This document shows positions 32,827 to 34,719 of a stretch of 64,000 nt of DNA, in pieces. Below the pieces are notes generated by a model that saw nothing but the letters and a program-made list of their open reading frames with translations, did no database searches and was not told the DNA's origin. The translations under genes and the position numbers were made by a program. Position 1 is the stretch's first letter. Each line of letters starts with the position of its first letter. Where the stretch lies: positions 62,001 through 126,000 of the forward strand of contig NKJG01000006.1 in NCBI GenBank assembly GCA_002256395.1. Reading direction: 5' to 3'. Source of the DNA: Bacteroidetes bacterium B1(2017). GTDB lineage: Bacteria; Bacteroidota; Bacteroidia; UKL13-3.

Positions 32827-33359
32827 GCGAAGATCTCTTAATAGAAAATAAAGTAGCCAACTCGGGTTTAGTTACACTGAACCTAGAGGACTATTATGAG
32901 CCTGCCGAAAAGCTTGTTTTAGATATTAAACCCTGGCTTTTTAGAGAACTTATTTTAAAAGAGAAAGACTATAGAGAATTTGTAAAGGCCCACGACTGGA
33001 GCCAGTATGCAGGCAAAATTGTTGCCTTTACTTGTTCGTCTGATGCCATCATTCCAGTTTGGGCGTATATGCTTTTAGGGGTTTCGGTTCAGCCCTTTGC
33101 CAAACGCTATTTTTTTGCCAGCCTACCCGAGGTAGAAACAATTTTATTTCAAGAAGCTTTGCAAAAAGTAGATTATTCTGCCTTTAAGGATGTGCGTGTA
33201 ATTATAAAAGGCTGCGGCCAAATTTCAATTCCAGTAAGCGCTTACGTTGAAATAACAGCCAAACTACAACCCTTTGCCAAAAGCATTATGTATGGCGAAG
33301 CGTGTAGCAATGTGCCGGTTTTTAAGAAGGCAGTCGCTAGTGTAAAGGAAGGTCGCTAG
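32823..33359 (+). CDS. DUF2480-family protein
   Basis: 178 residues matching the Bacteroidota DUF2480 pattern ('LVTLNLEDYY', 'LDIKPWLFRELILKEKDYREFVKAHDW', 'YAGKIVAFTCSSDAIIPVWAYM', 'GCGQISIPVSAYVEIT', 'YGEACSNVPVFKK'). Role unknown. The last nine codons and the stop are built from the GTCGCTA repeat that continues beyond the gene, so the native C-terminus may have been altered by that repeat. ATGA overlap with the upstream lipoprotein gene. Confidence 0.82.
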   Translation: MSEDLLIENKVANSGLVTLNLEDYYEPAEKLVLDIKPWLFRELILKEKDYREFVKAHDWSQYAGKIVAFTCSSDAIIPVWAYMLLGVSVQPFAKRYFFASLPEVETILFQEALQKVDYSAFKDVRVIIKGCGQISIPVSAYVEITAKLQPFAKSIMYGEACSNVPVFKKAVASVKEGR

Positions 33360-33434
33360 TCGCTAGTCGGAAAGAAGGTCGCTGGTGGGAAAGAAAGTTG
33401 CTGGTCGCTAGCAAACGAGATAACCAGCTAACCC
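33333..33434. repeat. Left GTCGCTA-type repeat cluster
   Basis: Heptamer GTCGCTA occurs at 33333, 33352 and 33359, followed by variants (gtcgctggtgggaaagaaag, gctggtcgctagc). It starts inside the end of the DUF2480 gene and runs up to the left inverted repeat of the S23 element. The piece 33387-33398 (gggaaagaaagt) can pair with 33438-33448 to form a hairpin. Confidence 0.75.
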
Positions 33435-33454
33435 GCGACTTTCTTCCCTACCAG
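33435..33454. repeat. Left 20-bp inverted repeat of the S23 element
   Basis: Perfect reverse complement of 33875-33894. Its first 16 bases also recur in direct orientation at 34045-34060 at the end of the heptamer array. Confidence 0.9.
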
Positions 33455-33850
33455 TTACACTATTCCATACCTCCTTTTTAAATAATCTAGGAAACTGGAT
33501 ATTTTTTTTCCGAGTTGGTCATATTCAATTAAGAGTTGCGAAGTTTCGCTTGAAAGATAAGGGTAAAGGTGATTTATTTTTAGGAGATGAAGGCTCGTTT
33601 CATCGCAACTTGCTAATGAATAAACCATGAACTTATACCATTCTTTTGGGTATACTTTTCTTCCATATCCTTCCACAATATTTGAGTTAACTGAATCGGC
33701 CGAACGCCTTAATTGACTGCCTAACTCGAACATTTCATGCCGAGGAAATTTCATTGAAAATTTGTGAGTTTTAATAAAAAGGTCGAACGAAGTTTTATAG
33801 ATTTCTAAATCCCGATATCCATTTTGTGTTTTATTATTCTTTTGTTCCAT
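33455..33850 (-). CDS. Four-helix-bundle protein (S23, 23S rRNA intervening-sequence family)
   Basis: 131 residues, all-helical by composition, with the family's hallmark 'QLRRSADSVNSNIVEGYGR' in the middle and 'RDLEIYKTSFDLFIKTHKF' at the start. Relatives occur inside 23S rRNA intervening sequences and as Avd proteins of diversity-generating retroelements, where they bind nucleic acid. No reverse transcriptase or variable-repeat target is present here, so it is not a DGR. ATG start. It is enclosed by 20-bp inverted repeats. Confidence 0.88.
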   Translation of the reverse strand: MEQKNNKTQNGYRDLEIYKTSFDLFIKTHKFSMKFPRHEMFELGSQLRRSADSVNSNIVEGYGRKVYPKEWYKFMVYSLASCDETSLHLLKINHLYPYLSSETSQLLIEYDQLGKKISSFLDYLKRRYGIV

Positions 33851-33874
33851 TCCCTTAAGATAGTAAGAAGGTCG

Positions 33875-33894
33875 CTGGTAGGGAAGAAAGTCGC
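33875..33894. repeat. Right 20-bp inverted repeat of the S23 element
   Basis: Perfect reverse complement of 33435-33454. Bases 33879-33894 can also pair with 34045-34060, folding the whole heptamer array into one long hairpin. Confidence 0.9.
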
Positions 33895-33920
33895 TTGTCG
33901 CGAGTCGCTAGTTGGGGGCC

Positions 33921-34046
33921 AACCAGCGACCAGCAACCAGCAACCAGCAACCAGCAACCAGCAACCAGCGACCAGCGACCAGCGACCAGCGACCAGCGAC
34001 CAGCGACCAGCGACCAGCGACCAGCGACCAGCGACCAGCGACCAGC
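33921..34046. repeat. Heptamer tandem array, 18 copies of (A/G)ACCAGC
   Basis: 126 bases divide exactly into eighteen 7-base units: AACCAGC, GACCAGC, five AACCAGC, then eleven GACCAGC. A 7-base unit leaves all three frames open, so spurious ORFs (heptapeptide SDQRPAT) run through it. It is bounded by gttgggggccaac on the left and gcgactttcttcccta on the right. Copy number is expected to vary between strains. Confidence 0.95.
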
Positions 34047-34060
34047 GACTTTCTTCCCTA
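34045..34060. repeat. Third copy of the 16-base GCGACTTTCTTCCCTA end sequence
   Basis: Direct repeat of 33435-33450 and inverted repeat of 33879-33894. It marks the right boundary of the array, 47 bases before the TrpF-like gene. Confidence 0.85.
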
Positions 34061-34107
34061 ACAACTTTTCCTTACTTTCGCTGCCGAATTTCTTAATACA
34101 ACAAATT

Positions 34108-34719
34108 ATGGCTACTTCAAGCAAACTAAAACTTAGTCCTATTACCAATTTATCCGATGCGCGTTTTGCCGCGGCAGAAGGTATTGCCTATATGGGTTTT
34201 TGTTTCGACCCAAGTTCTGCTGATTTTTTATTGCCTATAAAAGCGAAAGAAATTATTGAGTGGACAAGTGGCTCGCATACTGTGGGCGAATTTGGCGATC
34301 AAGAGTTGCAAGATATTGCCGAATTAAGTGAGCTTTTAAACCTAGATATTGTATTGCTTAGCAATGCTATTTTACCCGATGAATTACCGCAAATAGGCAA
34401 GCCAATTATTAAGGCAATAAACTTAAACGTAATGGATTCGGTTCAGCTTGCCAATGAGCTTTGCGCTTATGCACCTTATTGCGATGGCTTTCAATTAAAC
34501 GGAACCATAGAAATTAGTGAGCGCGAAGGAGAATTAATTGAAGCTTGCGCGCAGTATAAAATAATTTGGAACTTGCCTTTTGCTACAGAAAACGTTAAGC
34601 AAATTCTACATACCTATAAACCTTATGCCATTAATCTTTTAGCCGGTTCAGAAGAAAAAACAGGTATGAAAGAATACGATGAATTATATGCTGTATTAGA
34701 TGCTATATCTGCCAATTAA
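34108..34719 (+). CDS. TrpF-like (phosphoribosylanthranilate isomerase-like) TIM-barrel protein
   Basis: 203 residues from the ATG at 34108. The frame is open further upstream only because it crosses the heptamer array. The N-terminus 'LKLSPITNLSDARFAAAEGIAYMGFCFDPSS' resembles the first strands of TrpF (K-x-CG-x-T-x-x-x-D-A), and 'VGEFGDQELQDIAELSELLNLDIVLL' resembles the next unit, but the catalytic Cys of the 'KICG' motif is replaced (Ser-Pro). No other trp genes are nearby. It may be a divergent or non-catalytic relative; the true substrate is open. Confidence 0.6.
   Translation: MATSSKLKLSPITNLSDARFAAAEGIAYMGFCFDPSSADFLLPIKAKEIIEWTSGSHTVGEFGDQELQDIAELSELLNLDIVLLSNAILPDELPQIGKPIIKAINLNVMDSVQLANELCAYAPYCDGFQLNGTIEISEREGELIEACAQYKIIWNLPFATENVKQILHTYKPYAINLLAGSEEKTGMKEYDELYAVLDAISAN

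Follow-up and report, generated by a model that had tools for sequence, protein, structure and literature searches.

The locus described here is probably one copy of a widespread small mobile element, made up of an S23 gene and terminal inverted repeats with a period of seven nucleotides. It lies in a stretch of 64,000 nucleotides from Bacteroidetes bacterium B1(2017) (contig NKJG01000006.1, positions 62,001 to 126,000), hereafter called the window. The initial annotation had reported an S23 open reading frame (ORF) between perfect 20-bp inverted repeats, with its stop codon abutting the left one. Both observations were confirmed: the 20-mers are 100% complementary at a spacing of 420 nt, and the stop codon adjoins the arm at 33435-33454. 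The proposal that the 20-mers bound the element exactly, giving it a size of 460 bp, is not supported. They are the inner halves of two larger repeat hairpins and not the element ends; the unit measures about 730 bp and holds two complete hairpins, one on either side of S23. The features of the locus are as follows.

33331..34063, minus strand: whole S23 unit, with edges placed within a few bases by comparison with congener sites without the unit
33455..33850, minus strand: S23 / 23S rRNA-intervening sequence protein, 131 aa four-helix bundle (PF05635, TIGR02436, AF2, fold matches)
33435..33454, minus strand: inverted-repeat arm of 20 bp that follows the S23 stop
33875..33894, minus strand: inverted-repeat arm of 20 bp that precedes the S23 start
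33371..33454, minus strand: downstream hairpin, G-rich then C-rich arm (-38.1 kcal/mol, z=-5.8)
33876..34063, minus strand: upstream hairpin, arms 33876-33912 and 34027-34063, 86% complementary
33922..34049, plus strand: 18.3 tandem heptamers ACCAGC(G/A) (Tandem Repeats Finder), within the upstream hairpin
33332..33434, no strand assigned: degenerate repeats from the same family, which run into the end of the DUF2480 gene and give it its stop codon
32823..33359, plus strand: DUF2480 gene, left neighbour, outside the unit (PF10652, E=5.5e-71)
34108..34719, plus strand: TrpF-like gene, right neighbour, outside the unit (PF00697)

On the left, homology to DUF2480 stops at ...SNVPVFKK (33329) and repeat-like sequence follows from about 33331; on the right, the final repeat, GCGACTTTCTTCCCTAACA, terminates at 34063. 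Along the S23 strand, the parts follow one another as G-arm, C-arm, S23, G-arm, C-arm, and the polarity of the inner arms is reversed compared with the usual S23 brackets. The unit encodes neither a nuclease nor a transposase. A PADLOC search gave no match, and a defence role is unsupported for this locus.

The enclosed protein belongs to the S23/IVP family. PF05635 is its sole Pfam match (E=2.1e-22, 79.8 bits against a cut-off of 33.8), and the curated threshold of TIGR02436 was also passed (E=8.4e-25, 87.1 bits against 24). ORF starts were taken from simple calling, and 29 sequences went into the S23 profile. The AF2 model (pLDDT 95.9) is predicted to be a four-helix bundle that folds like 2GSC, 2RLD and Avd 4DWL (TM up to 0.82/0.93). 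The motif GxxRxxxSxxxNxxE, described for the family (PMC3936711), is present in the window's S23. Residues Q46, S53, N57 and E60 are invariant and R49 is nearly invariant; together with R64, they form a set of polar residues that are all invariant or nearly so.

The initial annotation had suggested a small mobile unit, a reading open to refutation if the repeats were unique to the locus or if empty orthologous sites never occurred. Neither turned out to be the case. In congeners, 0-100 bp separate the DUF2480 gene from the TrpF-like gene, compared with about 730 bp in the window, where the last DUF2480 codons and the stop consist of repeat sequence. One congener (G018) carries another repeat array at this junction, without S23. 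Moreover, the ACCAGC(G/A) heptamer arrays and the cap GCGACTTTCTTCCC recur without S23 at many intergenic places of the same genome. According to a whole-genome pattern search, the window heptamer has 38 matches in its own genome and none in 18 congeners. The heptamer of another locus (L264) is also present in three other genomes, mostly in one. Such pattern searches superseded earlier counts of cognate k-mers in a 0.46-Mb genome sample, a weak test with no difference at k=12 and a mean of 1.33 own against 0.33 foreign clusters at k=16. In solo hairpins with both arms, the G-rich arm precedes the C-rich arm (9/9 in the window family and 8/8 in a second set), as expected of terminal inverted repeats in fixed orientation. 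These S23-less repeats are best explained as solo derivatives of the S23 element, which would by analogy be a RAYT/REP counterpart without a transposase. Solo arrays mixing heptamer families of different S23 genes at one intergenic spot were also seen in this genome (L009, L036, L054, L055, L056).

Each of the other seven S23 genes of the window's genome is flanked by a different repeat family; therefore, all S23 genes were tested for brackets. In Bacteroidia, 120 of 149 genomes have S23 above the cut-off, with up to 23 matches each. Flank complementarity was compared between 41 S23 genes of this class (those in 40 regions plus the window) and 626 control ORFs, and S23 stood out (p=1.8e-21), also against size-matched controls (p=1.8e-18). 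A Xanthomonas S23 query retrieved 80 further loci from many phyla. The 68 with usable flanks again differed from 556 controls (p=1e-19). In this second set, lag-7 identity of the flanks was 0.72 against 0.54 (p=2e-15), with no difference at lag 6; period 7 was also found in the flanks of the Bacteroidia set. The upstream arm was richer in G than in C in 43/43 cases of the many-phyla set, and G-rich-upstream polarity prevailed by 87 to 15 in the pooled set. In total, 105 of the 153 pooled S23 genes were bracketed above the threshold and 48 (~30%) were below 13, counts that depend on an author-chosen aligned window and thresholds and include some related S23 loci. As a supporting result only, 34 solitary period-7 arrays were counted in 1.51 Mb of S23-bearing and none in 0.39 Mb of S23-lacking genome samples (eight genomes), with p=0.0004 to 0.04 over four settings that were loosened after a strict threshold had yielded almost no arrays.

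Two further families of small genes in the same class, PDDEXK_3 and Y1_Tnp, often have inverted-repeat brackets as well, without period 7. The heptamer bracket is thus a property of S23 and not general to small mobile genes. PDDEXK_3 (GxxExxY) brackets reached 13 or more in 13/27 cases (p=2.5e-6) and are often CACAGAG-like (L329-L358, with L358 in the window's genome, and L328 at the metH junction of G011); these genes are possibly a parallel element family. Among the strongest control flanks were those of AAA_14/DUF4143 ATPase genes (L173:15743-16924, L174:2952-4133, L185:2998-4179), with scores of 42, 20 and 18.5.

The description of the locus as an intervening sequence (IVS)-like design outside rRNA was borne out. 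An Rfam search of the window gave no known RNA and no rRNA, and the same period-7 bracket occurs in a true rRNA IVS. On plasmid AZO_p2 of Azospirillum lipoferum 4B (~2001-2348 of the region analysed), an S23 ORF lies within a full-length 23S rRNA match, between the same G-rich/C-rich period-7 arms. The gene table of this plasmid lists no feature at the site. In the Coxiella IVS, heptamer repeats lie just upstream of S23 (PMC4990558). Twelve S23 loci, chiefly of candidate phyla, showed no rRNA in their surroundings. S23 genes were also located inside CRISPR-Cas operons of named cyanobacterial plasmids (L390, L393, L395), between cas6 and cas4 and between cmr2 and cmr3; inverted repeats bracket them, and period 7 is strong where the neighbours are cas6 and cas4. 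In the open-licence literature searched, no description of a link between S23 and heptamer repeats was found; heptamers beside S23 were found for the Coxiella IVS only, and S23 in cas loci had been reported with no mention of repeats.

An IVS-like design could also mean that the arms are kept for a transcript stem, which RNase III would cut to free the S23 message or to split the operon mRNA. Folding gives this self-processing RNA some appeal: the 460-nt RNA reaches z=-5.0 and the whole unit z=-11.2, in a structure whose stem encloses S23. Likewise, S23 points the same way as both of its neighbours in 33/41 cases compared with 277/544 controls, and RNase III cleaves the Coxiella IVS at its first heptamer repeat (PMC4990558). 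In the window, however, S23 is antisense to both neighbouring genes, and the enclosing stem faces competition from local hairpins. Furthermore, the mismatches in the 105 S23 brackets comprise 90 G.U and 129 A.C, no excess of G.U but a difference in the wrong direction (p=0.01). Selection for an RNA stem is not supported, and the self-processing RNA, which the initial annotation had offered as an alternative to the mobile unit, is unlikely.

The repeats follow the protein. Arm similarity grows with S23 identity (Mantel p=0.0005), and among S23 pairs of at least 55% identity the similarity of the heptamers still holds once homologous-site pairs are removed (p=0.0002). AGGCACA-like repeats, for instance, are common to S23 genes of Nitrospirae, KSB1 and Niastella. 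Each lineage of S23 carries a heptamer of its own. The literature provided a prediction. GGGAATC is reported as a genome-wide heptamer of Xanthomonas and GGGGATT as one of Nostoc (PMC4692102), and the S23 nearest to Xanthomonas XCC0516 should accordingly carry GGGAATC. The nearest such locus found, a Luteimonas S23 between accB and accC (gene names deduced from the sequence on either side and not taken from an annotation), does carry it. GGGAATC has 214 matches in this Luteimonas genome and none in 14 other genomes.

Turnover is visible at a metH junction within one genus. S23 is carried there by 13 of the 15 genomes with the gene, in two distinct types with distinct heptamers, and two of the S23-bearing genomes keep remnants of the other type's heptamers. 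At L322, a solo hairpin stands at the junction without S23; together with the DUF2480 site, this provides orthologous sites that lack the unit. In genome G011, the same junction holds a PDDEXK_3 gene within inverted repeats. Presence at non-homologous sites was established for an S23 family other than the window's: a unit of 477 bp in the window's genome (L004) is 78% identical to units of two congeners (L141 and L142), and the flanking genes are unrelated. A conserved leader of more than 100 nt, with possible hairpins, lies upstream of one S23 family (L004:1341-1488 and L141/L142) and is kept at unrelated sites.

Cognate heptamers might also be expected of a regulator. S23 would then be an RNA- or DNA-binding protein, the heptamers its regulatory sites at operon junctions, with a TRAP-like ring and mobility as a secondary trait. 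The conserved polar residues listed above agree with such a role, as does the ring-shaped, pentameric structure of the S23 homologue 2GSC (PMC4990558). Of the 17 solo sites that were scored, 13 lie at junctions between tandem genes. At one metH junction within a genus, however, both S23 types and heptamers have turned over, and the window heptamer family is absent from all 18 congeners, which makes this explanation quite improbable.

S23 could be passive, with heptamer arrays expanding by slippage in tolerant intergenic spots where S23 merely happens to be. Arrays without S23 and with mixed families do exist, but the S23-specific bracketing, the fixed arm polarity and the co-specificity of heptamer and protein already disfavour this reading, which is very improbable. 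An assembly or contamination artefact of the metagenome bin (225 contigs, 7.13% contamination) is scarcely credible: in congeners, orthologues of the genes that flank the unit in the window keep the same order, and complete named plasmids show the pattern too.

We return to the mobile S23 element. In its favoured form, the S23 ring would bind its cognate heptamers and recognise the element ends, acting on DNA or on RNA. Units and solo hairpins would spread through S23 together with host replication, repair or some nuclease. Operon junctions would be preferred sites, since they tolerate a short co-directional insert. The rRNA IVSs would be copies of the S23 unit that landed in rRNA, and they are best explained as a special case of S23 elements. 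We lean towards the broader proposal that S23 and lineage-specific heptamers are two-component, transposase-free mobile elements across phyla, including the rRNA IVSs, and that they explain the dispersed heptamers reported without a protein.

To our knowledge, the abundant S23 proteins have no known function, and we know of no agent proposed so far for the heptamer repeats of Xanthomonas, Nostoc, Beggiatoaceae and others. The link between S23 and heptamers turns these two open questions into a single testable one, namely whether every S23 binds the heptamer that goes with it. If the proposal is true, the rRNA-fragmenting IVSs would join a far larger group of elements whose movement involves no recognised transposase.

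Several known systems resemble the S23 unit in part. The 23S rRNA IVSs of Coxiella, Leptospira and A. lipoferum share with it complementary ends that enclose an S23 ORF. They are about 0.4-0.5 kb long, whereas the window's unit lies in no rRNA gene, measures about 730 bp, and has two hairpins and a dispersed repeat family. Avd of the diversity-generating retroelements (4DWL) has the same predicted fold as the window's S23 (TM 0.71/0.86; PHROG Avd E=1.5e-5), but neither a reverse transcriptase nor a template/variable repeat turned up beside the window's S23, where four ORFs were profiled at the locus. The genome-wide heptamers of Xanthomonas, Nostoc and Beggiatoaceae and the cyanobacterial STRRs have the same period, and the Luteimonas GGGAATC is the Xanthomonas heptamer. 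In the available text of the two reports, the repeats are not linked to S23 (PMC4692102; PMC4679880); the latter gives TAACTGA for Beggiatoaceae and leaves the repeat-binding protein open. The REP/REPIN-RAYT system also combines a small gene in inverted repeats with dispersed solo hairpins, both of which are found here. In contrast to RAYTs, the four-helix bundle S23 has no Y1 (HUH) transposase domain, and its repeats are period-7 arrays, not REP palindromes.
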